From assembly GCA_947650365.1 (NCBI GenBank), contig OX393550.1:72053478-72117477 (forward strand): a stretch of DNA of 64,000 bases. Direction: 5' to 3'. The notes beneath the pieces are model-generated. The model searched no databases. It had not been told where the DNA came from and saw only the letters and a program-made list of their open reading frames with translations. Positions 16,903-64,000 of the stretch are shown piece by piece. Both the position numbers and the translations under genes were made by a program. Position 1 is the stretch's first letter; each line of letters begins with the position of its first letter. Origin of the DNA: Chamaelirium japonicum. Lineage: Eukaryota > Streptophyta > Magnoliopsida > Liliales > Melanthiaceae.

Positions 16903-19834
16903 GAGCACTCTTTTCCATAACACCCTTAAAGAACTTCGCTATGCACCTCCCGATTTTTGGGATTGCTACCAGACACCCTATATTTATGGATCGAAAATCA
17001 CTTTCTATTTTCTTGGGACCCCTACGCAATAACCAAAAGTAAATTATATATAAATCAAGCATTCCTACCTAAAAATCACTCTAAAAGCCTCACTTTGTAT
17101 CTTCCTATTTTTGCGACCGCTACCAGACTCCCCCTATAATTGGGGAGCCAAAATCGCTCCCTATTTTCTCAAGACCCCCACCTGACAACCATAGGTAAAA
17201 TATATTCAAATCTGGTACTCCTACCCATAATAACCTTAAATAGTATCACCATATACCTCCCTATATTTGGGATCGCTACCAGACTCCTTACATTTGGAAA
17301 GCCAAAATCACTCCCTATTTTATCAGAACCCGCACACAATAACCATAAGTAAATTATCTATATATTGAGCACTCTTAAAAAAAAAACCACCTAAAGGCTC
17401 GCCATGTGCCTCCCTATTTTTGGGATCATTGTCATATTCCTTACATTTGGGAAGCCAAAATCGTTGCATATTTTCTCAGGACCCTCACTCAACAACCATA
17501 CATAAATTATATACAAATTGAGCAATTATTTCCAAAGAACCCTCCAAGATAGTCATAATGTGTTTTTTTTATTTTTGGGATTACTAATAGACTCTATATT
17601 TGGGGAGCTAATAATGCATTATATTTTGTTAGGACCCCTACACGATAGTTATAAGTAAATTATATACAAATCGAGCACTATTCTCTAATATACCTTTCAA
17701 AAGCATTGCCATTTGCATTTCTATCTTTGGAATAACTACCAGACTCCTAACATTTAGAGAGCCAAAATCACTTCCTAATTTATCGGGTCCCCCACTCGAT
17801 AGCTATAAGTAAATTATATATAAATCGAGCACTCCTCCCTAAAATACACTCTAAGAACCTCACCATATGCCTCCTTTTTTTAAAGATCGCTACCAGACTC
17901 CTTATATTCGGAGAGCCAAAATTGCTTCTTATTTTCTTAGGACCCCCACCTGCCAAGAACCTCGTCATGTGCCTTTATATTTTTGGGATCGTTACCAGAC
18001 TTCCTATATTTGGAGAGACAAAATCACTCTCTATTTTCTCCGGACTCCCACCCGATAATTATAAGTAAATTATATACAAATCGAGCACTTCTTATAAAAT
18101 ACTATTTAATAGCCTTGTCGTGTACCTTCTAATTTTTAGGATCCAAAATGACGCCCGACTTTCTCAGGACCTCTACCTGATAACTAAAATAAAATTATAT
18201 ACAAATCGAGCACTCCTTTCTATAACACCCTCAAAGAGCTTTGCCATGCACCTTCTTATTTTTCGAATTATTAATAGATCCCTATATTTAGGGACTCAAA
18301 ATCACTCCCTATTTTCATATCCCACCCATCCGACAACCACCCTACAACCATAAGTAAATTATATACAAATCGAGCATTCATCCTAAAAAAACCCTTCAAG
18401 AGCTTGTCTATGTGGCTCCCTATTTTTAGGATCACTACTATACTCCCTATATTTGAGGAGTCAAAATCATTTCCTATTTTCTCTGCAATCTTATCTGATA
18501 ATCATTAGTAAATTATATATAACTTGAATACTCCTCCCCAAAAAACCCTCTAATATCCTCGCCATGTGCCTTTTTTTTCGGAGCACAATTAGACTCCCTT
18601 TATTTGGAGAGCCAAAATCACTCCCTATTTTCTCAGAACCCTCACCTGATTACCATAAATAAATTATATACAAATCAACCACTTATTCAGAAAACACCCT
18701 TAAAAAGCCTCCCCATATGCCTCCTTATTTTTCGGATAGCTACCAGACTCCTTATATTTAGGGAGCCAAATTCGCTTCCTATTTTCTCAAGTTCCCCACC
18801 CGATAATAGTATATAAATTATGTATAAATAAAACACTCCTCCTTAAAATACCCTCCAAGAGCCTCGTTATGTGCCTTTCTATTTGTGAAATCGCTAACTG
18901 ACTCCTTACATTTGGGGAATCAATATCATTCTATATTTTCTAAGGACCTCCACCCAACAACCAAAAGTAAATTATATACAAATCGAGCACTACTTCCCAC
19001 AACACCTTTAAAGAGCCTCACCTTATACCTTACTATTTTTGGGACCGCTACTAGACTCCCTATATTTGGGGAACAAAATTCACTTTATATTAAAAACTAT
19101 AAGTAAATTATATACAAATTCGGCCCTCTTTTTAAAAAAACCTTCTCAGAGCCTCACCATGTGCGTTCATATTTTAGAGATCGCTACCAGACTCCATACA
19201 TTTGGCAAGTCAAAATCGTTCTTTATTTTTTAAGGACTTCCACTGGAGAACTATAAGTAAATTATATAGAAATCAAGTACTCCTTCCCAAAATATCCTCT
19301 AATAACCTCACTATGTGCCTTTATATTTTTAATATTAATACTAGACTCTTTATATTTAAGGATCCAAAATCGCTCCGGACCCTTAATCGATAACTATAAG
19401 TAAATTATATATAAATCGAGAACTCCTCTCCATAACACTCTAAAAGAGCCTCACTATGGACCTCTCTAGTTTTGTCATCGTTACTAGACTTCTTATATTT
19501 GGGGTGTCAAAATTGCTCCCTATTTTATCAGGACCCCCTACCTAATAATTATAGTAAAATATCTATAAATCAAGCACACCTTCCAAAAATATCCTATAAG
19601 AGTCTCACCATATGCCACCTTATTTTTAGAATCACTACCAGACTTTCTATATTTATGGATCCAAAATCGCCCCCTATTTTCTCAGGACCCCCACCTAATA
19701 ACCATAAATAAATTATCTACAAATCAAGCACTCCTATCCGAAATACCCTCTAAGAGTCTGCTATGTCTCTTTCTCTTTTTGGGATTACAACTAGACTCCT
19801 TATATTTGGTGAGCCAAAATAGCTTCCTATTTTC
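16903..19834 (-). repeat. Decayed A monomers, partial third copy, up to the orientation switch
   Basis: From 16,903 the order resembles 15,057 onward: monomers with TATGCACCTCC, then TTTTTGCGAC, then TATATTCAAAT. One monomer is missing, because the offset falls from about 1,846 to about 1,689. Resemblance continues less clearly past 17,350. Truncated monomers are frequent from about 17,940: CCCACCTG joins directly to CCAAGAACCTCG near 17,952, the central segment is missing near 18,140, and TTCTCAGGA segments are missing near 19,085 and 19,375. No gene is present. Confidence 0.6.
19556..19834 (-). repeat. Paralogue of window bases 1-277
   Basis: This stretch matches the first 277 bases of the window at an offset of 19,555-19,557. 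Shared private text includes AAAATATCTA followed by AAATCAAG, CCTATAAGAGTCTCACCATA against CCTATAAAAGTCTCACCATG, and CTATGTCTCTTTCTCTTTTT against the same text with one change, followed by GGGATTACAACTAGACTCC and GGTGAGCCAAAAT. The similarity stops exactly where the orientation switch begins, and the left copy carries on as an intact A monomer. Confidence 0.8.
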
Positions 19835-19846
19835 GTGGGGTTTTAA
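19826..19846. other. Inversion junction between satellite blocks
   Basis: Up to about 19,834 the text is A-type on the minus strand, ending in GCTTCCTATTTTC. From there it is B-type on the plus strand, beginning with GTGGGGTTTTAAAAAAAATA, which corresponds to GGTGGGGGTTCAAAAAAAAT in other B monomers. The intact paralogue at positions 264-290 shows the A monomer continuing into CTATTTTCTCAGGACC, which fixes the break to within two or three bases. Because both sides are the same family in opposite orientation, GAGCCAAAATAG on the left faces a near-complement AAATAGTTTTGGCTC on the right, giving an imperfect palindrome around the join. Confidence 0.9.
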
Positions 19847-22800
19847 AAAAAATATAAAATAGTTTTGGCTCCCTAAATATAGGGAGTCCAGTAGTAATTC
19901 GAAAATATAGATCATATTATGAGGCTCTTAGAGGGTATTTTAGGGAGGAGTACTCGATTGCATATAATTTCTTTTAGGTTATTGGGTGGGCGTTCAAAAA
20001 AAATATGGAGCAGTTTTGGCTAACTAAATATAGGGAGTCTAGTAGTAATCCTAAAAATAGAAAGGCATATTGCGAGACTCTTAAAGGGTGTTTTAGGGAG
20101 GAGTGCTTGATTTATTTATAATTTACTTATGATTTTGGGGTATTTTTGGAAGGCAATGGCGAGGCTCTTCGAGGGTGTTTTGGGGAGAAATGCTCGATTG
20201 TATATAATTTTTTTATGGTTATCGGGAAGGGGTTCAAAAAAAAAGGTTGCTGTTTTGGCTCCCTAAATATATTGAGTCTAGTAGCAATCCAAAATATATA
20301 GAGCATATTATGAGGCTGTTAGAGGGTGTTTTAGGGAGAAGTGCTTGATTGTATATTATTCACTTTAGGTTGTCCTGTGGGGGTTCAAAAAAAATATGGT
20401 GCATTTTTGACTCCCTAAATATAGGGAGTCTAGTAGCAATCCCAAAAATAGAGAGAATATTGCAAGGCTCTTAGAGGGTATTTTAGGGAGGAGTGCTTAA
20501 TTATATATAATTTACTTAAAATTATCGGGTAGGGGTTAAAAAAAAATATATACTGGTTTTTCCTCCCAAAATATAGGGAGTTTAGTAGCTATCCAAATAA
20601 TAGAGAACATATTGCGAGGCTATTAGATGGTGTTTTTGGGAGGAATGCTTAATTGTATATTATTTAGTTAAGGTTATTAGGTGGGTGTTCAATAAAAATA
20701 TAGAGCAGTTTTGGCTCTCAAAATATAGGGAGTCAAATAGCAATCCCAAAAATAGAGAGCATATTGTGAGGCTCTTAGAGGGTGTTTTAGGGAGGAGTGC
20801 TTGATTATATATAATTTACTTAAGGTTATAGGGTGGGAGTTCAAAAAAAATATGAAGTGATTTTGGCTCCCTAAATATAGGGAGTCTAGTAGCAATCCCA
20901 AAAATAGAGAGGCATGTTGTGAGGTTCTTAGAAGGTGTTCTAGGGAGGCGTGCTGGATTTATATATAATTTACTTATGATTTTAGGGTGTTTTTGGGAGG
21001 CAATTGTGAGGCTCTTAGAGTATGTTTTGGAGAGGAATGCTCAATTGAGTATAATTACTTAAGGTTGTCGGATGGGTATTCAAACAAAATATGGAGTGGT
21101 TTTGGCTCCAAAAATATAAGGAGTTTAGTAGCAATCCCAAAAAATAGAGAGTATATTGCGAGGCTTTTAGAGGGTATTTTAGGGAGGAGTACTCAATCGA
21201 ATATAATTTACCTTAGGTTATCGAGTGGGGGTTCAAAAATAATATGGAGTGGTTTTGGCTCCTTAAATATAGGGAGTCTAGTAGCAATCCTAAAAATAGA
21301 GAGGCATATTACTAGACTCTTAGAGGGTATTTTAGAAAAGAGTGCTTGATTTATATATAATTTACTTAAGATTTTTGGGAGTTTTTGGGAGGCAATGGCG
21401 AGGCTCTTAGAGGGTATTTTTGGGAGGAATGCTCGATTATATATAATATACTTAAGGTTAACGGGTGAGGGTTCAAAAAAAATATAGAACGGTTTTGGCT
21501 CCCAAAATATAGGGAGTCTAGTAGTAATCCCAAAAATTGAGAGCATATTACAAGGCACTTAGAGGGTGTTTCAGGAAAGAGTGCTCGATTGTATATAATT
21601 TACTTAAGGTTATCGTGTGGGCGTTCAAAAAATATATGGAGCGATTTTGGCTCCCTAAATATACGGAGTCTAGTAGCAATCCTAACAATAGAAAGGCATA
21701 TTGCGAGTTTCTTAGCGGGAGTTTAAGGGAGGAGTGTTTGATTTATATATAGTTTACTAATAATTTTAGGGTATTTTTGGCAAGAAATGGCGAGGCTCTT
21801 GAAGTGTGTTTTTGGGAGGAATGCTTGATTGTATATAATTTATTTAAGGTTATTGGGTGGGGTTTTAAAAAACCTATAGAGTAGTTTTGGCTCCCTAAAT
21901 ATAGGGAGTTAAGTTGCAAACCCAAAAATAGAGAGCATATTATGTCTTTTAGAGGGTATTTTAGGGAGGAGTACTTGTTTATATATAATTCACTTAAGGT
22001 TGTCGAATGGGGGTTCAAAAAAAATATAGGGTGATTTTGGCTCCCAAAATATAGGGAGTCTAGTAGCAATCCCAAAAATATATAGCATATTCAGAGGCTC
22101 TTAGAGGGTATTTTAGGGAGGAGTGGTTGATTGTATATAATTTACTTAAGGTTGTCGAGTGGGGGTTTAAAAAAATTATAGAGCGGTTTTGGCTCCCTAA
22201 ATATAAGGAGTCTAGTAGCAATCCTAAAAATAGGGAGCATATTTTGAGGCTATTAGAGCATGTTTTTAGGGGGAATGCTCGATTGTATATAATTATTTAA
22301 AGTTGTTGAGTGGGGGTTCAAAAAAAATATGGAGCAGTTTTGGGTCCCTAAATATAGGGAGTCTAGTAGCAATCCCAAAAGTAGAGAGCATATTAAGCTC
22401 TATGAGGGTGTTAGGGAGGAGTGCTCGATTGTATATAATTTACTTAAGGTTGTCTGGTGGGGGTTAAAAAAAAATATAGAGCAGTTTTGGCTCCCTAAAT
22501 ATAGGAAAACTAGTATCAATCCCAAAAATAGAGAGGCATATTGCGAGGATCTTAGAGGGTGTTTTAGGAAGGAGTGCTTGATTTGTATATAATATACTTA
22601 TGATTTTAGGGTATTTTTGGGAGGTAATGGCCAGACTCTTTAAAGATGTTTTTGGGAGGAATGCTCGATTGTGTATAATTTACTTAAGATTGTCGGGTTA
22701 GGATTCAAACAAAATATGGAACGGTTTTGGCTCTCTAAATATAGGAAGTCTAGTAGCAATCCCAAAAAATAGAGAGACATATTGCGAGGCTCTTTGAGGG

Positions 22801-24805
22801 TGTTTTAAAAAGGAGTGTTTGATTTATATATAATTTACTGATAATTTTTGGATATTTTTGGGAGGCAATGGTGAGGCTCTTAGAGAGTGTTTTTGGAAGG
22901 AATGCTCGATTGTATAATTTACTTAAGGTTGACAGGTGGTGGTTGAAAAAAAATATAGAATCGTTTTTGCACCCTAAATATAGGGAGTTTAGTAGCAATC
23001 CCAAAAATAAAGAGCATATTACCATGCTCTTATACCGTATTTTAGGAAGAAGTGCTCTATTATACATAATTTACTTAAGGTTGTCGGGTAGGCATTCAAA
23101 TAAAATATAGAGCAGATTTGGCTCCCTAATTATAGGGAGTCCAGTAGCAATCCCAAAAATAGAAAGGCATATTACGAGTCTCTTAGAGGGTGTTTTAGGG
23201 AGGAGTGCTTGATTTATATATAATTTACTTATGATTTTAGGGTGATTTTGGGAGAATTGCTCGATTGTATATAATTTACTTAAGGTTGTCAAGTGGGTGT
23301 TCAAAAAAAATATAGAGTGGTTTTGGCTCCATAAATATAGGAAGTTTAGTAGTAATCCCAAAAATATAGAACATATTACGAGGCTCTTAGAGGGTATTTT
23401 AGGGAGGAGTGCTCGATTGTATATAATTCCCTTAAGGTTATCCGGTGGGGGTTCAAAAAAAATATAGAGCAGTTTTGGCTCCCTAAATATAGGGAGTCTA
23501 GTAGCAATCCTAAAAATAAAGAGCATATTGCGAGACTCTTAGAGGGTATTTTACGGAGGACTGCTCGATTGTATATAATTTACTTAATATTGTCGAGTGG
23601 AGGTTCAAAAAAAATAGGGAACAATTTTGCCTCCCTAAATATAGGGAGTCTAGTAGCAATCCCAAAAATAGAGAGCATATTGCGAGGCTATTAGATGGTC
23701 TTTTTGGAAAGAATGCTCGATTTTATATAATTTACTTATGGTTGTCGGGTGGGGGTTCAAAAAAATATGGAGCAATTTTGTCTCTCTAAATCTAGCGAGT
23801 CTGTAGCAATCCCAAAAATAGAGAGCATATTGCGAGGCTTTTAGAGGGTGTTTTAGAGAGGAGTGCTCAATTATATAAAATTTACTTAAGGTTGTCGGGT
23901 AGAGGTTCAAAAAAAATATAGAGCGATTTTGGTTCCCTAAATATAAGGAGTCTAGTAGCAATCCAAAAAATAGAGTGGTTTATTGCGAGGCTCTTAGAGG
24001 GTGTTTTAGCGAGGAGTGCTTGATTTATATATAATTTACTTATAATTTTAGAGTGTTTTTGGGAGGCAATGGCGAGGCTCTTAGAGGGTATTTTTGGAAG
24101 GAATACACGATTATGTATAATTTACTTAAGGTTGTCGAGTGGGGGTTAAAACATAATATGGAGCGGGTTTGGCTCCCTAAATATAGGGAGTGTAGTAGTA
24201 ATCACAAAAGATAGTGATCATATTGCGAAACACTTATTGGGTGTTTTAGGGAGGAGTGCACAAACGTATATAAATTACTTAAGGTTATCGGGTGGGGATT
24301 CAAAAAAAATATGGAGCGATTTTGGTTCCCTAAATATAAGGAGTCTAGTAATAATCCTTAAAATAGAGAGGCATATTGCGAGGCTCTTAGAGGGTGTTTT
24401 AGGATGGAGTGCTTGATTTATATATAATTTACTTATAATTTTTGGATGTTTTTAGGTAGCAATAGCGATGCTTTTAGAGCGTGTTTTTGGAAGAAATGCT
24501 CGGTTATATATAATTTACTAAAGGTTAACGAGTGGGGGTTAAAAAAAAATATAGAGTGGTTTTGGCTTATTAATAATAGGGAGTCTAGTAGAAATTCCAA
24601 AAATAGAAAGCATATTACCAGGCACATAAAGGGTATTTTAAGAAGGAGTGCTCGATTTTATATAATTTATATAAGGTTGTCGGGAGGGCTTTCAAAAAAA
24701 ATATATAGCGATTTTGGCTTTCTAAATATAAGGAGTCTAGTAGCAATCCCAAAAATAGAAAGACATATTGTGAGTCTCTTAGAGGGTATTTTAGGGAGGA
24801 GTGCT

Positions 24806-24807
<2 letters not shown>

Positions 24808-24872
<65 letters not shown>
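24808..24872. repeat. (TA)n microsatellite, about 65 bp
   Basis: A pure alternating AT run that replaces the normal TTTATATATAA at the 3' end of the monomer just before an S element. The host module is about 56 bp longer than the usual 390 bp, which matches expansion of the resident TATATATA seed. Confidence 0.97.
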
Positions 24873-24879
<7 letters not shown>

Positions 24880-26344
24880 TATGATTTTATGGTGTTTTTG
24901 GGTGGCAATAGCCAGGCTCTTAGAGGGTGTTTTTAGGAGGAATTCTCGATTGTATATAATTTAATTAAGGATATCTGATTGGGTTCAAAAAAAATATAGA
25001 GCAGTTTTGGTTCTCTAAATATAGGGAGTCTAGTAGCAATCCCAAAAATAAAGAGCATATTATGAGTCTCTTAGAGGGTGTTTTAGGGTGGAGTGCTCGA
25101 TTGTATATAATTCACTTAAGGTTGCCGAGTGAGGGTTTAATAAAAATATAGGACGATTTTGGCTCTCTAAATATAGGGAGTCTAATAACAATCGCAAAAA
25201 TAGAGAACGTATTGTGAGTCTCTTAGAGGGTGTTTAAGGGAAAACTGCTTGATTATATATAATTTACTTAAGGTTGTTGTGTAGGGGTTCAAAAAAAATA
25301 TAGAGTGGTTTTGGCTCCCTAAATATAAGGAGTCTAGTAGCAATCCTAAAAATAGAGACCATATTGCAAGGCTATTAGAGGGTATTTTTATGACGAATGC
25401 TCGATTGTATATAATTTACTTAAGGTTGTCGGGTGGGGGTTCAAAGAAAATATGGCTCAGTTTTGGCTGCCTAAATATAGGAAGTCTAGTAGCAATCCCA
25501 AAATTAGATAGCATATTAGGCTCTTAGAGGGTGTTTTAGGGAGGAGTGCTCGATTGCAAATAATTTACTTAAAGTTGTCGGGTGGGGGTTCTAAAAAATT
25601 ATGGTGCGGTTTTGGCTCCCTAAATATAGGGAGTCTAGTAGCAATCCCAAAAATAGAGAGGTTTATTGCGAGGCTCTTAAATAGGGTTTTAGGGAGGAGT
25701 ATTTGATTTATATATAATTTACATATGATTTTGGGGTATTTTTAGGAGGCAATGGCGAGGCTCTTAGAGGGTGTTTTTGGGAGGAATGCTTGATTGTGTT
25801 TAATTTACTTAAGATTATCGGGTGAGGGTTCAAACAAAATATGGAGCGATTTTGGCTCACTAAATATAGAGAGTCAAGTAGCAATCCTAAAAAATAAAGA
25901 GCATATTGCGAGACTTTTAAAGAGTGTTTTAGGGTGGAATACTCAATTGTATATAATTTACTTAAGGTTGTCGGGTGGGGGTTCAAAAAAAAAATGGAGC
26001 GGTTTTGGCTCCTTAAATATAGGGAGTCTATAAGCAATCCCAAAAATAGAGAGGTATACTGCGAGGCTCTTAGAGGGTATTTTAGGTTGCAGTGCTTGAT
26101 TTATATATAATTTACTTATGATTTTACGGTGTTTTAGGGAGGCAATGGCGTAGCTCTTAGAGGGTGTTTTTGGAAGGAATGCTTGATTATATATAATTTA
26201 CTAAAGGTTGTATGGTGGGGGTTTAAAAAAAATATAGAGTAGTTTTTGATCCCTAAATATAAGGAGTCTAGTAATAATCCCAAAAATAGATAGCATACTA
26301 CGAGGCTCTAAGAAAGTGTTTTAGAGATGAATGCTCGATTGTAT

Positions 26345-33898: not shown

Positions 33899-34701
33899 TA
33901 ATTTACTTATGATTTTAGGGTATTTTTGGGAGGCAATAGTGATGCTCTTTGAGGATGTTTTTGTAAGGAATGATCGATTGTGTTAAAATATAGAGCGGTT
34001 TTGACTCCTAAAATATAAGGAGTCTAGTATTAATCCCAAAAAATAAAGAGTATATTGCGAGGCTCTTAGAGGGTGTTTAGGGAGAAGTGCTCGATAGCAT
34101 ACAATTTACTTAAGGTTGTCAGGTGGGGGTTCAAAAAAAATATAGAGCGGTTTTGGCTCCCTAAACATAGGGAGTTTAGTAGCAATTCCAAAAATAGAGA
34201 GCATATTGCAAGGCTATTAGAGGGTATTTTTGGGAGGAATGCTCGATTGTATATAATTTACTTAAGGTTATTGGATGGGGGTTCAAAAAAAAGATGGATT
34301 GGTTTTGGCTCCCTAAATATAGGGAGTCTAGTAGCAATTCAAAAAATAGAGAGCATATTAGGCTCTTAGAGGGTATTTTAAGGAAGAGTGCTCGATTATA
34401 TATAATTTACATAAGGTAGTCAGGTGGGACTTCAAAAAAAATATAGAGCAGTTTTGGCTCCTTAAATATAGGGAGTCCAGCAATAATCCCAAAAATAGTG
34501 AGGGATATTGCGAGGCTCTTAGAGGGTATTTTAGGAGGGAGTGCTTAATTTATATATAATTCACTTATGATTTTATGGTGTTTTTAGAAGGCAATGGTGA
34601 GGCTCTTCGTAGGTGTTTTTGGGAGGAATGCTCGATTGTGAATAATTAACTTAAGGTTATCGGGTGGGGGTTCAAATAAAATATGGTGTTATTTTGGCTC
34701 T

Positions 34702-34737
34702 CTAAATATAGGGAGTCTTCCTAAATATAGGGAGTCT
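34702..34737 (+). repeat. 19 bp duplication of hairpin arm, first copy
   Basis: CTAAATATAGGGAGTCT appears twice in succession within one monomer. The 3' arm and loop of the usual palindrome are thereby doubled. The host module is about 20 bp longer than 390. Confidence 0.9.
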
Positions 34738-49900: not shown

Positions 49901-52900
49901 TGCTTGATTTATATATAACTTATTTATGATTTTAGGTTGTTTTTGGGAGGCAATAGTGAGGCGCTTAGAGGGTATTTTTGGGAGAAATGCTCGATTGTAT
50001 ATAATTTACTTAAGTTTGTCGGGTGTGGGTTTAAAAAAAATAAGGAGCGGTTTTGGATCCCTAAATATAGGGAGTCTAGTAGCAATCCCAAAAATAAGGA
50101 GTATATTGCGAGTCTCTTAGAGGGTATTTTAAGGAGGAGTGCTTGATTGAATATAATTCACTTAAGGATGTTGGGTGGGAATTCAAATAAAATATGGGGC
50201 GATTTTGACTCCCTTAATATAGGGAGTCTAGTAGTAATCACAAAAATAGAGAGCATATTGTGAGATTTTTAGAGGGTATTTTAGGAAAGAGTGCTCGATT
50301 GTATATAATTTACTTAAGGTTATCGGTGTGGGCATTATAAAAAAATATAGAGTGGATTTGGCTACCTAAATATAGGGAGTCTAGTTGCAATCCTAAAATT
50401 AGAAAGGCATATCACTATGCTCTAATTGGGTATTTTATGGAGGAGTGTGATTTATATATAATTTTCTTTTAGGAGGCAATAGTGAGGCTCTTAGAGGGTG
50501 TTTTTGGGATGAATATTCGATTATACATAATTTACTTAAATTTATTGGGTGGGGGTTTAAAAAAAATATGGAATGGTTTTGGCTCCCAAAATATAGGGAG
50601 TCTAGTAGCAATCCCAAAAGTAGAGAGCATATTACCAGGCTCTTAGAGGGTGTTTAATGAAGAAGTGCTCAATTATATATAATTTACTTAAGATTGTCGG
50701 GTGGGGGTTCAAAAAAAATATGTGGCGGTTTTGGCTCCCTTAATTTAGGGAGTCTAGTAGTAATCCCAAAAATAGATAGTATATTGTGAGTCTCTTAGAG
50801 GGTGTTGTAAGGAGGAGTGCTCGATTGTATATAATTCACTTAAGGTTATCGGGTAGGTGTTCAAAAAAAGTATGGGGTGGATTTGCCTCCTTTAATATAG
50901 GACTCTAGTAGCAATCATAAAAATAGAGCATATTGCGAGACTTTTAGAGGGTGCTTTAGAGAGGAGTGTTTGATTGTATATAATTTACCTATGGTTATCG
51001 GGTGGTCATTTAAAAAAATATAGAGCGGTTTTGGCTACCTAAATATAGGAAGTCTTGTTGCAATCCCAAAAATAGAAAGGCATACTGGGAGGCTCTTATA
51101 GGATATTATAGGGAGGAATGCGCTATTTATGTATAATTTACAGATGATTTTAGGGTATTTTTAGGAGGCAATGGTGAGCCTCTTAGAGGGTGTTTTTGGG
51201 ATGAATGCTCGATTATACATAATTTACATAAGATTTTCCGGTGGGGGTTAAAACAAATTTGGAGCGGTTTTGGCTCCCTAAATATAGGGAGTCTAGAAGC
51301 AATCCTAAAAATAGAGAGCATATTACCAGGATCTTAGAGGGTGTTTTATGAAGGAGTCCTCGATTGTATATAATTTACTTAAGGTTGTCGGGTAGGCGTT
51401 CAAAAAAAATATAGAGTAGTTTTGGCTCCCTAAATATAGGGATTCTAGTAGCAATCCCAATAATAGAAAGGCATAATGCGAGTCTCTTAGAGGGTGTTTT
51501 AGGAAAGAGTGCTTGATTTATATATAATTTACTTATGATTTTAGGGTGTTTTTAGGAGAAAATGGGGAGGCTCTTAGATGGTATTTTTGGGAGGAATGCT
51601 CGATTATATATAATTTACTTAAAGTTGTTGGGTCGGGGTTCAAAAAAATATGGGGTGGTTTGAATCCCTACATATAGGGAGTCTAGTAGCATTCCCAAAA
51701 ATAGAAAGCATATTGCGAGGCTCTTAGAGGATGTATTCGGGAGGTTTGCTCGATTGTATATAATTTAACTAAGGTTATCGTGTGGGGGTTTAAAAAAATT
51801 ATAGAGCAAATTTGGCTCCCTAAATATAAAGAAGACTTGTAGCAATCCCAAAAATAGAAATCATATTGCAAGGCTATTAGAGGGTGTTTTTAGGAGGAAT
51901 GCTCGATTGTATATAATTTACATAAGGTTGTTGCGTGGGGGTTTAAAAAAAATATGGAATGGTTTTGGCTTCCTAAATATAGGGAGTCTAGTACCAATCC
52001 CAAAAATAGAAAGGCATATTGCGAGTCTCTTAGAGGGTGTTTTTGGGAGGAGTGCTTGATTTATATATAATTTATTTATGATTTTAGGGTATTTTTTGGA
52101 GGCAATGGCGAGGCTCTTAGATGGTGTTTTTGGGAGTAATGCTCGATTGTATATAATTTTGTTAAGGTTGTCGGGTATGGGTTCAAAAAAATATGGAGCG
52201 ATTTTGGCTCCCTAAATATAGAGAGTCTAGTAGCAATCCTAAAAATAAAGAGCATATTGCAAGTCTCTTAGAGGGTATTTTAAGAAGGTGTGTTCGATTG
52301 TATATAATTCACTTAAGTTTGTTGGGTGGGGGTTCAAAAAAAAATATGGGACGATTTTGGCTCCCTTAATATAGGAAGTCTAATAACAATCACAAAAATA
52401 GAGAGCAAATTGTGAGACTTTTAGAGGGTGTTTTAGGAAGGAGTGCTCGATTGTATATAATTTACTCAAGGTTGTCGGATGGGCATTCAAAAAAAATATG
52501 GAGCGGATTTGGCTACCTAACTATAGGGAGTCTAGTTATAATGCCAAAATTAGAAAGGCATATTGTGTGGCTCTTATAGGGTATTTTAAGGAAGAGTACA
52601 TGATTTATATATAATTTACTTTTAGAAGGCAATAGTGAGGCTCTTAGAGGGTGTTTTTGGGATGAATGTTCGATTATATACAATTTACTTATGGTTGTTG
52701 GGTGGGGGTTCAAAAAAAATATAGAGCGGTTTTGGCTACCTAAATATAGAGAGTCTAGTAGCAATCCCAAAAATAGAGAGCATATTACTAAGCTCTTAGA
52801 TGGTGTTTTAGAAAGGAGTGCTCGATTGTATATAATTTACTTAAGGTTGTCGGGTGGGTGTTCAAAAATAATATGGAGCGGTTTTGGCTCCCTAAATACT

Positions 52901-54377
52901 GAGAGTCTAGTAGTAATCCCAAAAATAGAAAGGCATATTGTGAGTCTCTTAGAAGGTGTTTTAGGGAGGAGTGCTTGATTTATATATAATTTACTTATGA
53001 TTTTAGAGTGTTTTTAGGAGGCAATAACGAGGCTCTTATAGGGTGTTTTTGGGAGGAATACCTGATTGTATATAATTTACTTAAGGTTATAAGGTGGGGG
53101 TTAAAAAAAAATATAGAGCAGTTTTGGCTTCCTAAATATAGGGAGTCTAGTAGCAATCCCTAAAATAGAGAGCATATTACGAGTATTTTAAAGGGTATTT
53201 TAGGAAGGAGTGATCGATTATATATAATTTACTTAAGGTTGTAGGGTGGGGGTTCAAAAAAAATATAGGGTGGCTTTGGCTCCCTAAATATAGGGAGTCT
53301 AGTAGCAATGTCAAAAATAGAGAGCATATTACGAGGCTCTTAGAGGGTGTTTTAGGGAGTAGTGCTCGATTGTATATAATTTACCTAAGGTTGTCGAGTG
53401 GGGGTTCAAAAAAAATATGGGGCAATTTTGGCTTCCTAAATATAAGGAGTCTAGTCACAATCCTAAAAATAGAGAGCTTATTACGAGGATATTAGAGGTT
53501 ATTTTGAGGACGAATGCTCGATTGTATATAATTTACTTAAAGTTGTTGGGTGGGGGTTCCAAAAAAAATAAAGAGTAGTTTTGGTTCCCTAAATATAGGG
53601 AGTCTAGTAGCAATCCCAAAAATATAGAACATATTACAAAGCTCTTAGAAGGTGTTTTAGGAAGGAGTGCTATATTGTATATAATTTACTTAAGGTTGTC
53701 ATATGGACATTCAAAAAAAATATGGAGCAATTTTGACTCCCTAAATATAGGGATTCTAGTAGCAATCCTAAAAATAGAATGGCATATTGCGAGTCTCTTA
53801 GAGGATGTTTTAGAGAGGAGTGCTTGATTTATATATAATTTACTTATGATTTTAGGGTATTTTTGGGAGGCAATGGCGAGGCTCTTAGAGGGTGTTTTTG
53901 GGAGGAATGCTCGATTGTATATAATTTACTTAAGGTTGTCGAGTATGGGTTAAAAAATATATAGAGTGGTTTTGGCTCCGGAAATATAGGGAGTCTAGTA
54001 GAAATCCCAAAAATAGAAAGTATATTGCGAGTCTATTAGATGGTGTTTTAAGGAGGAGTGCTCGATTGTGTATAATTCACTTAAAGTTATCGGGTGGGGG
54101 TTCAAAAAAAATATGGGACAGTTTTGGCTCCCTTATTATGGGGGGTCTAGTAGCAATCACAAAAACAGAGAGCATATTACAAGACGTTTAGAGGGTGGTT
54201 TAGGGAGGAGTGCTCGATTGTATATATTTTACTTAAGGTTGTCGGGTGGGCATTCAAAAAAATATGGAGCAGTTTTGGCTTCCTAAATATAGGGAGTCTA
54301 GTAGCAATCCCAAAAATAGAAAAGCATATTGCGAGTCTCTTAAAGGGTATTTTAAGGAGGAGTGTTTGATTTATATA
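46911..54377 (+). repeat. Higher-order repeat array, 2-5-3 unit of about 1.78 kb
   Basis: S starts are at 46,911; 47,299; 48,137; 48,681; 49,072; 49,916; 50,459; 51,134; 51,525; 52,068; 52,612; 52,987; 53,836 and 54,378. Units with modules of 2, 5 and 3 full monomers occupy 46,911-48,680 (1,770 bp), 48,681-50,458 (1,778 bp) and 52,612-54,377 (1,766 bp). The unit 51,134-52,611 (1,478 bp) is the same with two monomers lost from the 5 module. Predicted length for ten full and three S monomers is 1,778 bp. Diagnostic variants recur in phase within the 3 module: TATGGGGCGATTTTGG, GCTCCCTTAATATAGG, CAATCACAAAAATAG and the GGCTACC...AGTTGCAATCC monomer. A four-monomer module at 50,459-51,133 interrupts the series. 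Confidence 0.85.
53836..53921 (+). repeat. Representative truncated monomer S (86 bp)
   Basis: Runs from TAATTTACTTATGATTTTAG to just before the next TAATTTACTTAAGG. It lacks the block from the G-rich end through the A8 tract, hairpin and CAATCCC segment, and retains GGGAGGCAATGGCGAGGCTC, CTTAGAGGGTGTTTTTGGGA and GGAATGCTCGATTG. The TTACTTATG and GGAGGCAATGGCGAGG variants match subfamily A, not B, so S looks like a deletion derivative of an A monomer. More than sixty S copies occur in the right block. The full monomer before each S usually has GAGGCATATTGC and GCTTGATTTATATATAATTT, while ordinary B monomers have GAGCATATTGC and GCTCGATTGTATATAATTT. Confidence 0.85.
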
Positions 54378-56008
54378 TAATTTACTTATGATTTTAGAGT
54401 GTTTTTTGGAGGCAATAGTGAGGCTCTTACACGGTGTTTTTGGGAGGAATGCTCGATTGTATATAATTTACTTAAGGTTGTCGGGTGGGGGGTTCAAAAA
54501 AAATATGGAGTGGTTTTGCCTTCCTAAATATATGGAGTCTAGTAGCAATCCCAAAAATAGAGAGCATATTGCGAGTCTTTTAGAGGGTTTTTTAGAGAGG
54601 AGTGCTCGATTGTATATAATTAACTTAAGGTTGTCGGGTGGGGGTTCAAAAAAAATATGGGGTGGTTTTGGCTTTCGAAATATAGGGAGTCTAGTAGCAA
54701 TCCCAAAAATAAATAGCATATTGCCAATCTCTTAGAGGGTGTTTTAGGGAGGCGTGCTCGATTGTATATAATTTACCTAAGGTTGTTGGGTGGGTGTTCA
54801 AAAAAAATATGGAGCACTTTTGGATCCAAAAATATAGGAAGTTAGTAGCAATCCCAAAAATAGAGTGCATATTTCGAGGATATTAGAGGGTGTTTTTAGG
54901 AGAAATGCTCGATTCTATATAATTTACTTAAGGTTGTTGGGTGGGGTTTCAAAAATAATATGGAGCGGTTTTGGTTCCCTAAATATGGGGAGTCTAGTAG
55001 CAATCCCAAAAATAGAGAGCATATTGCAAGGCTAATAGAGGGTGTTTTCAGGATGGATGCTCGATTGTATATAATTTACTTAAGGTTGTTGGGTGGGTGT
55101 TTTAAAAAAAATAGATCAGTTTTGCCTCCCTAAATATAGGGAGTCCATTAGAAATCCCTAAAATAGAGAGCATATTAGGCTCTTAGAGGGTGTTTTAGGG
55201 AGGAATGCTCGATTGTATATAATTTACTTATGGTTGTCGGATGGGGGTCTAAAAAAAATATGGAGCTGTTTTGGCTCCCTCAATATAATGAGTCTAGTAG
55301 CTATCCTAAAAATCGAGAGGTATATTACGAGACTCTTATAAGGTGTTTTAAAGAGGAGTGCTTGATTTATATATAATTTACTTTTGATTTTAGGGTATTT
55401 TTGGGAGGCAATGGTGAGGTTCTTAAAGGATGTTTTTGGGAGGAATACTTGATTGTGTATAATTTCCTTATGGTTATCGGGTGGGGGTTTAAAAAAAATA
55501 TAGAGCTGTTTTGGCTCCCTAAATATAGGGAGTCTAGTAGCAATCCCAAAAAATAGAGAGCATATTACAAGTCTCTTAGAGAGTGTTTTAGGGAGGAATG
55601 CTCGAATATATATAACTTACTTAAGGATGTCAGTTGCGGGTTCAAAAAAAATATGGAGTGATTTTGGCTCCTTAAATATAGGGAGTCTAGTAGCAATCCC
55701 AAAAATAGATAGGCATATTGCGAGGCTCTTAGAGGGTATTTTAGGGATGAGTGCTGGATTTATATATAATTTACTTATGATTTTAGGGTTTTTTTTGGAG
55801 GCAATGGCGAGGCTCTTAGAGGGTGTTTTTGGGAGGAATGTTCGATTATATATAATTTACTAAAGGTTATCAGGTGGGGGTTTAAAAAAAATATAGAGCT
55901 GTTTTGGATCCCTAAATATAGGAAGCCTGGTGGCAATCCCAAAAATAAAGAGCATATTGTGAGGTTCTTATAAAGATTTTTAGGGAGGAGTGCTCGATAT
56001 TATATAAT

Positions 56009-56140
56009 TTAGTTATGATTATCAGGTTGGAGAATTGTGAAATTAGGAGCAATTTTGGCTTCCCAAATATAGGGAGTCTAGTAGCGATCCCAAAAATAAG
56101 GAGGCAATGGCGAGGCTCATATAAGGTGTTTTTGGGTGGA
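56009..56140 (+). repeat. A-type monomer embedded in B array
   Basis: Contains TTGGAGAATTGTGAAATTAG, GAGCAATTTTGGCTTCCC, AGTAGCGATCCCAAAAATAA and GGAGGCAATGGCGAGGCTCA with the CATATAAGG tail. It begins about 240 bp after the S start at 55,767. Confidence 0.8.
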
Positions 56141-57550
56141 ATACTCAATTGTATATAATTTACTTATGATTGACGGATGGTGGTTCAAAAAAAATATGAA
56201 GCGGTTTTGGCTTCCTAAATTTATAAAGTCTAGTAGCAATCCCAAAATTAGAGAGCATATTGTGAAGCTCTTAGAGGGTGTTTTAGGGTGGAGTGCTCAA
56301 TTGTATATAATTTACTTAAGGCTGTCTGGTGGGTGTTAAAAAAAAATATAGAGCGGTTTTGGCAACCTAAAAATATGGAGTCTAATAGCAATCCCAAAAA
56401 TAGAAAGGCATATTGTAAGGCTCTGAGAGGATATTTTAAGGAGAAGTTCTTGATTTATATATAATTTACTTATGATTTTAGGGTATTTTTGGGAGGTAAT
56501 GGTGAGGCTCTTAGAGGGTGTCTTTAGAAGGAATGCTCGATTGTATATAATTTACTTAAGATTGTCGGGTTGGGGTTCAAAAAAAATATAGAGCAGTTTT
56601 GGCTCTATAAATATAGGGAGTCTTGTAGCAATCCCAAAAATAGAGAGTATATTGCGAGGCTCTTAGGGGGTGTTTTATGGAGAAGTGCTCGATTGTATAT
56701 AATTCACTTAAGGTTGGCCGGTGGGGGTTCCAAAAAAATATAGAGTGGTTTTGGCTCTCTAAATATTAGGAGTCTAGTAGCAATCCCAAAAATAAAGAGC
56801 ATACTGCTAGGCTCTTAGAATGTATTTTAGGGAAGAGTGCTCGATTGTATATAATTTACTTAAGGTTATCGGATGGGGATTCAAAAAAAATATAGATTGG
56901 TTTTGCTTTCCTAAATATAGGGAGTCTAGTAGCAATCCCAAAAATAGAGAGCATATTATGAAGTTATTAGATGATGGTTTTGGAAGGAATGCTTGATTGT
57001 ATATAATTTACTTAAGGTTGTCGAGTGGGGGTTCAAAAAAAATATGGAGCGATTTTGGCTCCCTTAATATGGGGAGTCTAGTAGCAATTCCAAAAATAGA
57101 GAGTATATTGTGAGGCTCTTAGAGGGTGTTTTAGGGTGGAGTGCTCCATTGTATATAATTTCCTTATGGTTGACGGGTGGGGGTTCAAAAACAATATGGA
57201 GCGATTTTGCTTCCCTAAATATAGGGAGTCTAGTAGCAATCCAAAAAATAGAGAGGCATGTTGTGAGGCTCTTAGAAGGTGTTTTAGGGAGGAGTGCTTG
57301 ATTTATATATAATTTACTTATGATTTTAGCGTGTTTTTGGGAGGCAATGGCGAGGCTCTTAGAGGGTGTTTTTGGGAGGAATGCTCGAATATATATAATT
57401 TACTAAAGATTGTCCGGTGGGGGTTCAAAAAAAGTATAGAGCGGTTTTGGCTCTCTAAATATAGGAAGTATAGTGGTAATTCGAAAAATAGGGAGCATAT
57501 TGTGAGGCTCTTAGAAAGTATTTTAGGGAGGAGTGCTCGATTGTATATAA

Positions 57551-57685
57551 TTTTGTTATGATTATCAGGTGTGAGCCTTGTGAAATTGGGAGCGATTTTG
57601 GCTCGCCAAATATAGGGAGTCTAGAAGCTATCCCAAAAATAAGGTGGCAATGGTGGGGCTCATGTAACGTGTTTTTGGGAGGATT
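57551..57685 (+). repeat. A-type monomer embedded in B array
   Basis: Contains GTGTGAGCCTTGTGAAATTG, GGAGCGATTTTGGCTCGCC, AAGGTGGCAATGGTGGGGCT and CATGTAACG. It lacks the A8 tract. It begins about 240 bp after the S start at 57,310. Confidence 0.8.
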
Positions 57686-58841
57686 ACTCAATTATATATA
57701 ATTTACTTAAGGTTGACGGGTTGGTGTTTAAAAAAAATATGGTGCGATTTTGGCTCCCTAAATATATAGAGTCTAATAGCAATCCCAATTATAGAGAGCA
57801 TATTGCGAAGCTCTTAGAGGGTGTTTTAGGATGGAGTGCTCGATTGTATATAATTTACTTAAGGCTGTCGGGTGGGTGTTCAAAAAAATTATGGAGCGGT
57901 TTTGGTTACCTAATTATATAAAATCTTGAAGCAATCCCAAAATTAGAAAGGCATATTGCGAGACTCTTAGAGGGTATTTTAGGGAGAATTTCTTGATTTA
58001 TATATAATTTACTTATGAATTTAAGGTGTTTTTAGGAGGCAATGGCGAGGCACTTAGAGGGTGTTTTTAGGTAGAATGCTCAATTGTATATAATTTACTT
58101 AAGGTTGTCATGTGGGGATTCAAAAAAAATATGGAGCAATTTTGGCTCCATAAATATAGGGAGACTTGTAGCAATCGCAAAAATCAAAAGCATATTATGA
58201 GGTTTTTAGGTGGTGTTTTTGGGAGGAGTGTTCGATTGTATATAATTCACTTAAGGTTGGCCGATAGGGGTTCAAAAAAAATATGGAGCGGTTTTGGTTC
58301 CCTAAATATAGGGTATCTAGTAGCAATCCAAAAAATAGAGAGCATACTGCTAGGCTCTTAGAGGGTATTTTAGGAAAGAGTGCTCGATTATATTTAATTT
58401 ACTTTTGGTTGTTAAGTAGGGTTCAAAAAAAATATGGATCGGTTTTGCCTTCCTAAATATAAGAAATCTAGTAGAAACCCCAATAAATAGAGAGCATATT
58501 ATAAGGCTATTAGATGATGTTTTTGGGAGGAATTCTCGATTGTGTATAATTTATATAAGGTTATTGGGTGGGGGTTTAAAATAAATATGGAGCGGTTTTG
58601 GCTCACTAAATATAGGGAGTCTAGTAGCAAGACCAAAAATAGAGAGCATATTGTGAGGCTTTTAGAGGGTGTTTTAGAAAGGAGTGCTCGATTATATATA
58701 ATTAATTTATGGTTGTCAGGTGGGGGTTCAAAAAAAATATAGAGCTTTTTTGTCTTCCTAAATATAGGGAGTCTAGTAGCAATCCTAAAAATAGAGAGGC
58801 ATGTTTCGAGGCTTTTAGAGGGTGTTTTAGGGAGGGATGCT

Positions 58842-58962
<121 letters not shown>

Positions 58963-61602
58963 ACTTTTAATTTTAGAGTGTTTTTGGGAGACAATGGTGT
59001 GGCTCTTAGAGGGTGTTTTTGGCAGGAATATTTGATTGTGTATAATTTATTTAAGGTTGTCGGCTGGGGGTTCAAACGAAATATGGAGCAATTTTAGCTC
59101 CCTAATATAGGGAGTCTAATAGCAATCCTAAAAAATAGATGGCATATTGAGAGGCTCTTAGAGGGTGTTTTTGGGAGGAGTACTCAATTATATATAACTT
59201 ACTTAAGGCTGTCGGGTGGGGGTTCAAAAAAATATGGAGCGGTTTTGGTTTATTAAATATTGGAAGTCTAGTAGCAATCCAAAAAATAGAGAGGCATATT
59301 GCGAGGCTCTTATAGGGTGTTATAGGAAAGAGTGCTTGATTTAAATATAATTTACTTATGATTTTTGGGTGTTTTTGGAAGGCAATGACAAGGCACTTAG
59401 AGGGTATTTTTGGGAGGAATGTTCGATTGTATAAAATTTATATAAGGTTAATGGGTAGGGGTTCAAAAAAAATATAGAGCGGATTTGTCTCCCTCTATAT
59501 AGGGAGTCTAGTAGCAATTCCTAAAATAGAGAGCATATTGTGAGACTTTTAGAGGGTATTATATGGAGGAGTACTCGATTATATATAATTTACTTAAGGT
59601 TGTCGTGTCGGTATTCAAAAAAAATATGGAGTAGTTTTGGCTATCTAAATATAGGGAGTCTAGTTGTAATCCCAAAAATAGAAAGGCATTTTGCGAGGCT
59701 CTTATAGGGTGTTTAATGGAGGAGTGCGTGATTTATATATAATTTACTTATGATTTTAGAATATTTTTAGAAGGCAATGACGAGGCTTTTAGAGGGTGTT
59801 TTTGGGATGAATGCTCGATTATATATAATTTACTTAAGGTTATCCAGTAGGGGTTCAAAAAAAATATGGAGTAGTTTTGGCTCCCTAAATATATGGAGTC
59901 TAGTAGCAATCCTAAAAATAGAGAGCATATTACCAGGCTCTTAGAGTGTTTTAGGAAGGAGTGCTCGATTATATATAATTTACTTAGGTTGTCGGGTGGG
60001 CCTCCAAAAAAAATATAGAACGATTTTGACTCCAAAAATATAGGGAGTCTAGTAGCAATCCCAAAAATAAAAAGGTATATTGCGAGTCTCTTAGAGGAAG
60101 TTTTAGGGAGGAGTGATTGATTTATATATAATTTACTTATGATTTTTGGGTATTTTTTAGAGGCAATAGTGAGTCTCTTAAAGGGTATTATTGGGAGGAA
60201 TGCTTAATCGTATATAATTTACTTAAGGTGTTGGGTGAGGATTCAAAAAAATTATGGAGCGGTTTTGGCTCCCTAAATATAGGGAGTATAGTAGCAATCC
60301 CAAAAATAGAGAGCATATTATGAGTCTCTTAAAGGGTGTTTTACGGAAGAGTGCTCGGTTGTATATAATTCACTTAAGGTTGTATGGTGGGGGTACAAAA
60401 AAAATATAGGGCGGTTTTGGCTCCCTAAATATAGGGAGTCTATTAGCAATCCCAAAAAAATAGAGGGTATATTGCGAGGCTCTTAGAGGGTATTTTAGGA
60501 AGGAGTGCTCGATTCTATAAAATTTACTTAAGGTTGTCGGGTGGGAATTCAAAAAAAATATAGAGTGATTTTGGCTTCCTAAATATAGACAGTCTAGTAG
60601 CAATCCCAAAAATAGTGAGCAAATTGAGAGCCTATTAGACGGTGTTTTTAGGAGGAATGCTCGATTGTATATAATTTACTTAAAGTTGTTGGGTCGGGTT
60701 CAAAAAAAATATGTAGCGGTTTTGGCTCCTTAAATATAGGGAGTCTATTAGCAATCTCAAAAATAGAGAGCATATTAGGCACATAGAGGGTATTTTAGGG
60801 AGGAGTGCTTGATTGTATATAATTTACTTGTTATCGGGTGGGGGTTCAAAAAAACTATAGAGCGATTTTGGCTCCCTAAATATAGGGAGTTTAGTAGCAA
60901 TCCTAAAAATAGAGAGGCATATTGTGAGGCTCTTAAGGGATGTTTTAGGGAGGAGTGTTTAATTTATATATAATTTATTTATGATTTTAGTGTGTTTATG
61001 GGTGGCAATGGCGAGGCTCTTAGAGGGTGTTTTTGGGAGAAATAGTCGATTGTGTATAATTTACTTAAAGTTGTCAGGTATAGGTTCAAACAAAATATGA
61101 TGCGGTTTTAGCTCCCTAAATATAGGGAGTCTAGTAGCAATCCCAAAAAATAGAGAGCATATTGTGAGGCTCTTAGAGAGTGTTTTAGGGAGGAATGCTC
61201 GATTGTATATAATTTACTTAAGGTTGTCGGGTAGGGGTTCAAAAAAATATAGAGCGGTTTTGGCTCCTTTAATGTAGGGAGTCTAGTAGCAATCCAAAAA
61301 ATAGAAAGGCATATTGCAAGGCTCTTAGAGGGTATTTTAGGAAGGAGTACTTGATTTATATATAATTTACTTATGATTTTAGGGTGTTTTTAGGATGCAA
61401 TGACGAGGCTCTTAGAGGGTGTTTTTGGGAGGATTGCTCGATTATATATAATTTACTATAGGTTGTCGGGTGGGGGTTCAAAAAAAATATAGAGCGGTTT
61501 TGGCTCCCTAAATATATGGAGTCTAGTTACAATCCCAAAAATAGATAGCATATTGCAAGGCTTTTAGAAAGTATTTTAAGGAATAATGCTCAATTATATA
61601 TA

Positions 61603-61735
61603 ATTTAGTTATGATTATCGGGTGGGAGTCATGAGAAATTGGGAGTGATTTTTGCTTCTCTAATATGGGGAGTCTAGTAGCGATCCCAAAAATAAGGAGG
61701 CAATGGTGAGGCTTATATAAGGTGTTTTTGAGAGG
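61603..61735 (+). repeat. A-type monomer embedded in B array
   Basis: Contains TCGGGTGGGAGTCATGAGAA, ATTGGGAGTGATTTTTGC, AGTAGCGATCCCAAAAATAA and GGAGGCAATGGTGAGGCTTA with the TATAAGG tail. It begins about 240 bp after the S start at 61,363, exactly paralleling the copy 5,596 bp upstream. Confidence 0.8.
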
Positions 61736-64000
61736 AATGCTCGATTGTATATAATTTACTTAATTTTGACGAGTGGGGGTTCAAAAAAAATATTGAGCAA
61801 TTTTAGTTCTATAAATATAGGAAGTCCAGTAGCAATCCCAAAAATAGAGAGTTATTGTGTGGCTCTTAGAGGGTGTTTTAAGGAGAAGTGCTTGATTGTA
61901 TATAATTTACTTAATGTTATCGGGTAGGCATTCAAAAGAAATATAGAGTGGTTTTGTCTGCCTAAATATTGGGAGTCTAGTAGAAATCCCAAAAATAGAA
62001 AGGCATATTGTGAGGCTAACAGAGGGTGTTTTAGGGAGGAGTGCTTGATTTATAAATAATTTATTTATAATTTTAGGTTATTTTTGGGAAGCGATGGTGA
62101 GGCTCTTAGAGGGTGTTTTTAGGAGGAATGCTCAATTGTATATAATTTAATTAAGGTAGTCCGGTGTAGGTTCAAAAAAAATATGGTGTGATTTTGGCTC
62201 CGTAAATATAGGTAGTTTCGTAGCAATCCCAAATATAGAGAGCATATTATGAGGCTCTTAGAGGGTATTTTAGAGAGGAGTGCTCGATTGTATATAATTC
62301 ACTTAAGGTTGTTCGGTGGGGATTTAAAAAAAAATATGGAGCGATTTTGGCTCCCTAAATATATGGTGTCTAGTAGAAATCCCACAAATAGAGAGATATT
62401 GCGAGACTATTATAGGGTATTTTAGGAAGAAGTGCTCGATTATATATAACTTACTTAAGGTTGTCGGGTGGGGGTACAAAATAAATATGGAGCGGTTTTG
62501 CCTTACTAAATAAAGGTAGTCTAGTAGCAATCTAAAAAATAGAGACATATTGCGAGGCTATTAGATGGTGTTTTTGGAAGGAATGCTCGATTGTATATAA
62601 TTTACTTAAGGTAATTGGGTGGGGGTTCAAAAAAATTATAGAGCGGTTTTGGCTCCCTAAATATAAGGAGTCTAGTAGCAATCCAAAAAATAGAGAGCAT
62701 ATTGCGAGGCTCTTAGAGGGTGTTTTAGGAAGGAGTTCTCGATTGTTTGTAATTTACTTATGGTTATCGGGTGAGGGTTCGAAAAAATATAGAGCGATTT
62801 TGCCTCCCTAAATATAGGAAGTCTAGTAGCAATCCCAAAAATAGAGAGGCATGTTGCGAGCTTCTTAGAGGGTGTTTTAAGGAAGAGTGCTTGATTTATA
62901 TATAATTTACTTATGATTTTAGGGTATTTTTGGGAGGCAATAGAAAGGCTCTTAGAGGGTGTTTTTCGGAGAAATTCTCGATTGTGTATAATTTACTTAA
63001 AGTTGTCGGGTGGGGGTTCAAACAAAATATGGAACAGTTTTGGCTCCGTAAATATAGGGAGTCTAGTAGCAATCCCAAAAATAGAGAGTATATTACAAGA
63101 CTCTTAGAGGGTGTTTTAGGGAGGAGTGCTCAATTGAGTATAATTTACTTAAGGTTATCGGGTGGGCGTTCAAAAAAAAAATGAAGCGGTTTTGACTCAT
63201 TAAACATAGGGAATCTAGTAGAAATCCTAAAAATATAGAGGCATATTGTGAGGCTATTATAGGGTGTTTTAAGGAGGCATGCTTTATTTATATATAATTT
63301 ACTTATGATTTTGGGTGTTTTTGGGAGGCAATGGCGAGGCTCTTAGAGGGTTTTTTTGGGAGGAAAAATCGATTATATATAATTTACTTAAGATTGATGG
63401 TTGGGGGTTCAAGAAAAATATGGAGCAGTTTTGGCTCCCTAAATATAGGGAGTCTAGTAGCAATCCCAAAAATAGAGAGCATAATACGAGGATTTTAGAG
63501 GGTATTTTTGGGAGGAGTGCTTGATTCTATATAATTTACATAAGATTGTTAGGTGGGTATTCAAAAAAAATATGGAGCGGTTTTTGCTACCTAAATTTAG
63601 GGATTCTAGTTGCAATCCTAAAAATAGAAAGGCATAATACGAGGCTCTTATAGGGTGTTTTAGAGATGAGTGCTTGATTTATATATAATTTACTTACGAT
63701 TTTAGGGTGTTATTGGGAGCAATGACGAGGCTTTTAGAGGGTGTTTTTGGGAGGAATGCTCGATTATATATAATTTACTTAAGGTTGTCGAGTGGGGGTT
63801 TAAAAAAAATATAGAGTGGTTTTAGCACCCTAAATATAGGGAGTCTAGTAGCAATATCAAAAATAGAGAGCATATTATGAGGCTATTAGAGGGTCTTTTT
63901 GGGAGGAATGCTCGATTATATACAATTTACTTAACATTGTCGGGTGGGGGTTCAAAAAAAATAAGGAGTGGTTTTGACTCCCTAAATATAGGTAGTCTAG

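Follow-up and report, generated by a model that had tools for sequence, protein, structure and literature searches.

Probable irregular higher-order repeat with a trimer register and a recurrent short unit in a satellite array of Chamaelirium japonicum

What determines the positions at which a shortened monomer recurs along a tandem satellite array? The question is raised by a 64,000-nucleotide stretch of the Chamaelirium japonicum genome (GenBank assembly GCA_947650365.1, contig OX393550.1, positions 72,053,478 to 72,117,477; hereafter the window, to which all positions below refer). Most of the window is occupied by a satellite array, called B, in which a short unit, S, recurs among full monomers. 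The original prediction, made from the sequence alone, described S as an 86-bp (base pair) monomer truncated by two deletions and acting as a ruler for the spacing. Our analysis points to a different organization: very probably, the array is an irregular, multi-domain higher-order repeat with a trimer register headed by a monomer variant, H, in which the third slot is taken either by S (H-P-S) or by a full monomer (H-M-M), and S is a fused unit that spread within larger blocks.

Quantized spacing of the S units

The B array was tiled with a two-profile Viterbi aligner, run on positions 19834-64000, with both the B and the S profile learned from the data. The first pass yielded 247 B and 79 S units; two S calls, at 26302 (78 bp) and 32805 (52 bp), had no S tail and were therefore reassigned to truncated B, giving the final set of 249 B and 77 S. 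As predicted, the 76 S-to-S distances formed sharp peaks at 86 + 152n bp, where n is the number of B units in a module: 56 distances deviated from these values by at most 3 bp, 59 by at most 5 bp, 61 by at most 8 bp and 63 by at most 10 bp, compared with the 4.6% within 3 bp and 13.8% within 10 bp expected from phase-free placement. The predicted form of the quantization thus stands, but not the exact length of S. The modal S measures 87 bp (61 of 77), and the P monomer preceding it is 153 bp long in 50 of 71 cases, so that the spacing constant lies one or two bases above the stated one.

Thirteen of the 76 distances are off by more than 10 bp. Inspection of the off-size modules by eye revealed TA runs in the S units at 24772 and 58808, shortened S units at 23176, 38418, 50416 and 52567, short B units at 32805, 33941 and 37016, and internal duplications of about 20 bp at 34599 and 37615. 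Events of the kind to which most deviations had been attributed are present in at least some of the off-size modules.

The quantization itself says little about S. Because the units join head to tail without spacers, successive S units are necessarily separated by one shorter unit plus whole monomers, and whole-unit spacing would arise in any gapless array. S is a passive phase marker for which no measuring role is shown, and the notion of a ruler has to be abandoned. Given that quantization is automatic, the informative question is which values of n occur. Modules with n=2 (33) and n=5 (17) dominate, together accounting for 50 of 76 in agreement with the prediction, and are accompanied by 12 modules with n=4, 10 with n=3 and 2 with n=1, whereas n=6 (996 bp) and n=8 (1,302 bp) are the two anticipated single cases. 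Random scattering of S among equal monomers, which would produce a geometric distribution of n, was rejected (chi-square of 125 against a maximum of 90 in 20,000 simulations). When the order of long and short modules was tested for periodicity over 12 lags, a low value was obtained at lag 4 (P=0.007) and a high one at lag 6 (P=0.024), with no correction for the number of lags.

Monomer classes and the trimer register

Full monomers were assigned to four classes: H, with T at column 22 and A at column 30; P, the non-H monomers preceding S; x, divergent or truncated monomers (13); and M, the remaining non-H monomers (54). The H doublet is present at the first position of 66 of 76 modules, at position 4 of n=5 modules in 16 of 17 cases, at position 3 of n=4 modules in 8 of 12, and in 2 of the 3 cases provided by position 4 of n=6 and positions 4 and 7 of n=8; it occurs in 5 of the remaining 137 monomers. 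The second marker, an extra base at columns 142-144, marks the last monomer in 69 of 76 modules and 5 of the 169 monomers elsewhere, all five at position 2 of n=4 modules. Viewed from S, the preceding unit carries the extra base in 70 of 77 cases (G in 56, A in 7, T in 6 and C in 1), and the following unit is H in 73 of 77. P precedes S in 71 of 77 cases, a figure that holds partly by definition, the P label being given to non-H monomers before S; the extra base itself is independent of that label.

These classes are arranged in recurrent strings. Modules with n=2 are mostly H-P-S trimers of about 392 bp, and the alternative trimer, H-M-M, measures about 456 bp. Fifteen of the 17 n=5 modules read H-M-M-H-P, and the single n=8 module reads H-M-M-H-M-M-H-P. 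Furthermore, successive H monomers are three units apart in 78 of 110 cases, and n equals 2, 5 or 8 (n mod 3 = 2) in 51 of 76 modules. Taken together, the three-unit H spacing and the majority of n=2, 5 and 8 indicate that the register is a trimer with S in the third slot. Among the other modules, H-M-P is found in 7 of 10 with n=3 and H-x-H-P in 6 of 12 with n=4; in 5 of these 12, the second unit carries the extra base, as expected if an S had been lost after it. Thus, the array displays the diagnostic variants by position that characterize higher-order repeats, namely, the H doublet, the extra base and the class consensus, as well as a recurrent shortened monomer at a fixed slot, defined by the H that follows S and the extra base that precedes it.

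Origin of the S unit

The S tail, AGGGTGTTTTTGGGAGGCAATG, matches the head of the H monomer in 21 of 22 columns, including both H-diagnostic bases. Its local alignment score is 35 against the H head and 29 against the P, M and A consensuses (A being the oppositely oriented array described below), and the best of 3000 dinucleotide-shuffled tails reached 28. When the tails were compared singly, 64 of 69 were nearest to H, 3 were tied and 2 were not, the other 8 of the 77 being skipped for length. The tail and junction motif, with at most 6 substitutions allowed over 30 bp, was detected in 65 of 77 S units and in none of the 249 B units, and it is absent from positions 1-19833 on either strand. 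Since the motif is confined to S, S most likely originated once, in the B lineage and at a time when the H variant already existed.

According to the alternative account implied by the original prediction, S arose from a monomer through two internal deletions, the B monomers around it are otherwise equivalent, and the array evolves as single whole monomers are gained or lost. In keeping with this account, the spacing steps correspond to single monomers, modules with n=3 and n=4 exist (22 of 76), and a collinear two-deletion alignment of S can be written. However, the position markers show that the monomers are not equivalent, n=2, 5 and 8 predominate with a geometric n rejected, and the H head fits the S tail better: at an equal cost of 4 per jump, the H-head model reached a score of 14 (10 to 14 over four flank choices) compared with 5 for the collinear model. 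We consider the two-deletion account unlikely. S does look like one lineage, yet the most fitting interpretation of its tail is that part of the following H head was copied.

Under the fused-unit reading, S would have arisen once, within an already existing H-headed trimer, when a template switch or an illegitimate join left a non-H monomer near column 58, entered the head of the next H (roughly columns 7-32) and returned to an H start. Unequal exchange, or copying that resembles conversion, would then have spread the H-P-S trimer alongside H-M-M in blocks of roughly 7-40 units, with occasional gain of a single unit (n=3), loss of S (some n=4) and local indels as additional events.

Blockwise similarity along the array

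After removal of class, row and column effects, the residual identities of unit pairs on the same diagonal were correlated (r=0.10 at step 1, 0.05 at step 3 and 0.02 at step 8), with off-diagonal values of about 0. Nine ungapped diagonals exceeded the highest of 60 within-class shuffles, and 7 of the 14 gapped alignments listed exceeded the highest of 20 shuffles (0.171); one example of such similarity pairs 46025-50787 with 47789-52941. Similarity above the shuffles extends over blocks of about 7-40 units, which recur at varying offsets (for example, 1543, 1764 and 3931 bp). In the adjacent duplication listed in Table 1, the two copies span 55809-57351 and 57352-58998, and the S closing the second copy holds the 114-bp TA run. 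Gain and loss of whole monomers, as originally proposed, is thus an incomplete description, given that n=2, 5 and 8 differ by three-unit blocks, that similarity comes in still larger blocks, and that some n=4 modules resemble the outcome of S loss.

The original prediction further suggested that the module series could serve as a barcode. Modules of the same n are more alike when their neighbouring n match (r=0.36, 763 pairs), and the correlation persists after removal of (n, position) effects (r=0.33, 762 pairs), with 0 of 2000 shuffles reaching the observed value in either case; for the 529 pairs more than 8 kb apart, r=0.35. The barcode therefore works when the series is combined with sequence, but not as a series of n alone, which is not significant at any k from 2 to 6.

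The mean identity of B monomers is 0.82 (243 monomers), and that of the best blocks 0.87-0.88. With the TA runs set aside, exact repeats in the B array reach a maximum length of between 80 and 89 bp; two exact 100-mers sit within the TA runs. Given this monomer identity and the lack of long exact repeats, the exchanges were probably not recent.

One string deserves separate mention. Six n=4 modules read HxHP (at 26063, 29850, 44032, 55722, 57265 and 61318), and the next module always starts with HMMH, with n=5 in five cases and n=8 in one. The x monomer belongs to the same divergent class in five of the six modules and is a truncated monomer in the one at 26063. Because all six precede HMMH, their recurrence suggests an 11-unit lineage dispersed over about 35 kb.

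Several observations weigh against the fused-unit, trimer-register reading. A third of the modules (25 of 76) do not conform to the register, lying outside n=2, 5 and 8. In a mixture model, the rough Bayesian information criterion favoured two classes, and this division set divergent or truncated monomers apart rather than H, which split off only at three; the position classes therefore rest on the marker columns and not on a clustering score. The P and M consensuses are identical except for the extra base. The 5' part of S (to about column 58) scores 49 against P/M and 45 against H, but is slightly nearer to the A consensus (50). The join points of S are not sharp, the first being blurred by a short GGGTG match common to both partners, and the shuffle control matters because the jump model is less constrained than the collinear one. 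Finally, the n-series alone recurs no more often than when shuffled (P between 0.08 and 1.0 for k=2 to 6; k=3, 0.15; k=4, 0.08; k=5, 0.43), and residual identity displays no trend with distance, so that local homogenization is rejected.

Recombination, function and assembly

Because the S tail nearly copies the head of the following H, the S-H boundary amounts to a short tandem duplication (about 22-33 bp), and cutting and re-joining could conceivably favour this site, with S steering which blocks exchange. If so, the array would carry its own recombination punctuation, but we regard this extension as improbable.

Alternatively, S might be a selected element, such as a nucleosome or CENP-A phase spacer or a protein-binding site, with its placement kept by function. 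Consistent with this possibility, S sits at its usual slot across 44 kb, and most monomer columns beyond about 60 are missing from it, among them those of the CTCCCTAAATATAGGGAG dyad found in the full monomer consensus. The variability of S is, however, much like that of the monomers. Over columns 1-37, the mean identity is 0.820 for S compared with 0.817 for H, 0.803 for P and 0.830 for M, and that of the S tail is 0.832; over all columns, S-S identity is 0.847 compared with 0.829-0.837. Moreover, some S units are damaged by TA runs or reduced to a 35-bp remnant, and the dyad lacks clear covariation. A functional hairpin at CTCCCTAAATATAGGGAG was rejected on account of an inconsistent signal over 7 column pairs: relative to shuffles, one pair was about 2 standard deviations above expectation (13 compensated double mutants, with 8.3 expected) and another about 1.2 above, a third was about 2.3 below (4, with 8.6 expected), and the other four were within 1. 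Nothing in the sequence comparisons appears to call for a function of S, and selection on its placement is very improbable.

An assembly artefact, that is, collapsed or mis-joined satellite reads, is hardly credible: although satellite arrays are hard to assemble and mis-joins could have occurred at the 19833 seam or in either TA run, the B monomers average 82% identity with no exact 90-mer repeats outside the TA runs, such that accurate long reads should place uniquely, and the position markers agree along the array.

Comparison with known satellites

Human alpha-satellite arrays contain position-specific monomer classes and variant higher-order repeat lengths within one array, and the copies of one higher-order unit are usually far more alike than the best blocks here (0.87-0.88, in an array with a B monomer identity of 0.82). 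Higher-order repeats with a truncated monomer have already been published. In the passages of Melters et al. (2013, PMC4053949) on the switchgrass centromere repeat, a 792-bp unit consists of four 175-bp monomers and about half a monomer, and a 1,131-bp unit of six monomers and 53 bp. By description, though not by sequence, the B array is alike in that several full monomers are combined with a truncated one (PMC4053949). The two differ in that one unit is stated there per cited read, whereas n is variable here (1-6 and 8) on a trimer register, and in that the short unit here bears a copy of the head of the next monomer (PMC4053949). For maize CentC at centromere 10, the corresponding passages describe adjacent multi-monomer duplications (one of 10 monomers), adjoining inverted arrays, and a homology-mediated deletion that removed monomer sequence and produced a chimeric monomer (PMC4806543). 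Block duplications, a chimeric monomer and adjoining inverted arrays are thus paralleled, again by description and not by sequence, but the passages on CentC mention no recurring short unit (PMC4806543). No description was found of an array that combines a variable n on a trimer register with a short unit bearing the head of the next monomer, the literature search terms not having named that feature.

The unit classes and the module series together provide a readable record of blockwise reshuffling in a fairly old, diverged satellite, and the array illustrates how a chimeric short monomer becomes locked into one slot of a higher-order repeat. Given long reads, the same classes and series would allow tracing of unequal exchange between chromosomes or accessions.

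Layout of the window

Both arrays tile into successive units, so that the whole window is satellite from end to end (Table 1). By this tiling, and by scans for open reading frames and Rfam models (a protein-family search was not among them), both are head-to-tail tandem satellites. Only three open reading frames of at least 120 amino acids are present, all within the B array and 120-151 amino acids long, and the window yielded no Rfam match at gathering thresholds. The window is non-coding satellite DNA, eukaryotic by kind; its sequence type, together with the mutation pattern described below, suggests a plant-like genome and a possible centromeric or pericentromeric location.

Table 1. Coordinates of the arrays, units and blocks in the window
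Feature	Position	Strand	Description	Basis
A satellite array	1..19833	-	~154-bp monomers, ~7.0-kb (47-unit) repeat	tiling
B satellite array	19834..64000	+	249 B (~152 bp, some truncated) and 77 S (~87 bp), head to tail; continues past window end	Viterbi tiling with B and S profiles
Seam of two opposite arrays	19760..19960	.	no obvious spacer	
First S unit	20074..20160	+	87 bp	tiling
Example n=5 module, S-HMMHP, then next S	20074..21007	+		tiling and unit classes
TA-expanded S (141 bp)	24772..24912	+	TA run of 64 bp at 24808-24871	
Block matching 55028-57111	29155..31238	+	offset 25,873 bp; same unit string HPSHPSHxHPSHMMH	
S remnant	38418..38452	+	35 bp	tiling
Local domain, n partly 3-2-5	46025..54419	+	similar blocks at offsets 1764, 3931 and 5699 bp; mean unit identity 0.87	
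Adjacent duplication, 11-unit block HxHPS-HMMHPS	55809..58998	+	offset 1543 bp; mean unit identity 0.865	
TA-expanded S (191 bp)	58808..58998	+	TA run of 114 bp at 58844-58957	

The A and B consensuses are equal at 135 of 152 columns and thus belong to the same monomer family. The guanine-cytosine skew changes sign at the A/B junction because the orientation of the arrays flips there. At 19833/19834, the opposite arrays join at roughly corresponding parts of the monomer, which makes the junction a diverged inverted repeat. Within the A array, an alignment of about 5.4 kb at an offset of 6,994 bp reaches 86.4% identity, compared with an average identity of 72% among A units; the best match lies at lag 47 for 83 of 134 units, and similar 71-bp truncated units are located at 13654 and 6657, 6,997 bp apart. 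Four of the 134 A-array units were called S by the tiling (71, 60, 71 and 51 bp), the S tail motif being absent from both strands.

Changes of the C-to-T type exceed T-to-C several-fold in every context counted and are highest in CA, CG and CCG. This excess would be compatible with heavy cytosine methylation as in plants, but is not diagnostic of any one group. An exact search with an 18-base core returned no match in viral, bacterial or archaeal contigs, where little was to be expected. Searches of the literature with sequence strings and with phrases for a 152- or 154-bp satellite or monomer were likewise unmatched, which does not show the family to be unpublished.

Damaged and expanded units

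Runs of at least 10 AT or TA dinucleotides occur only twice in the window, both within S units. The S consensus contains TTTATATATAA without the G that interrupts the same stretch in the B consensus. At 37920-38115, a 196-bp monomer carries an insert of several tens of bases unlike the satellite. The H monomers at 34599-34770 and 37615-37786 share the internal duplication of about 20 bp at the same place; their flanking blocks, 34059-34921 and 37075-37919, align with a score of 0.157, below the highest shuffle. The S units at 50416-50483 and 52567-52636, 2.15 kb apart, have lost similar internal sequence and belong to paired blocks that score above the shuffles, so they may descend from one damaged S.

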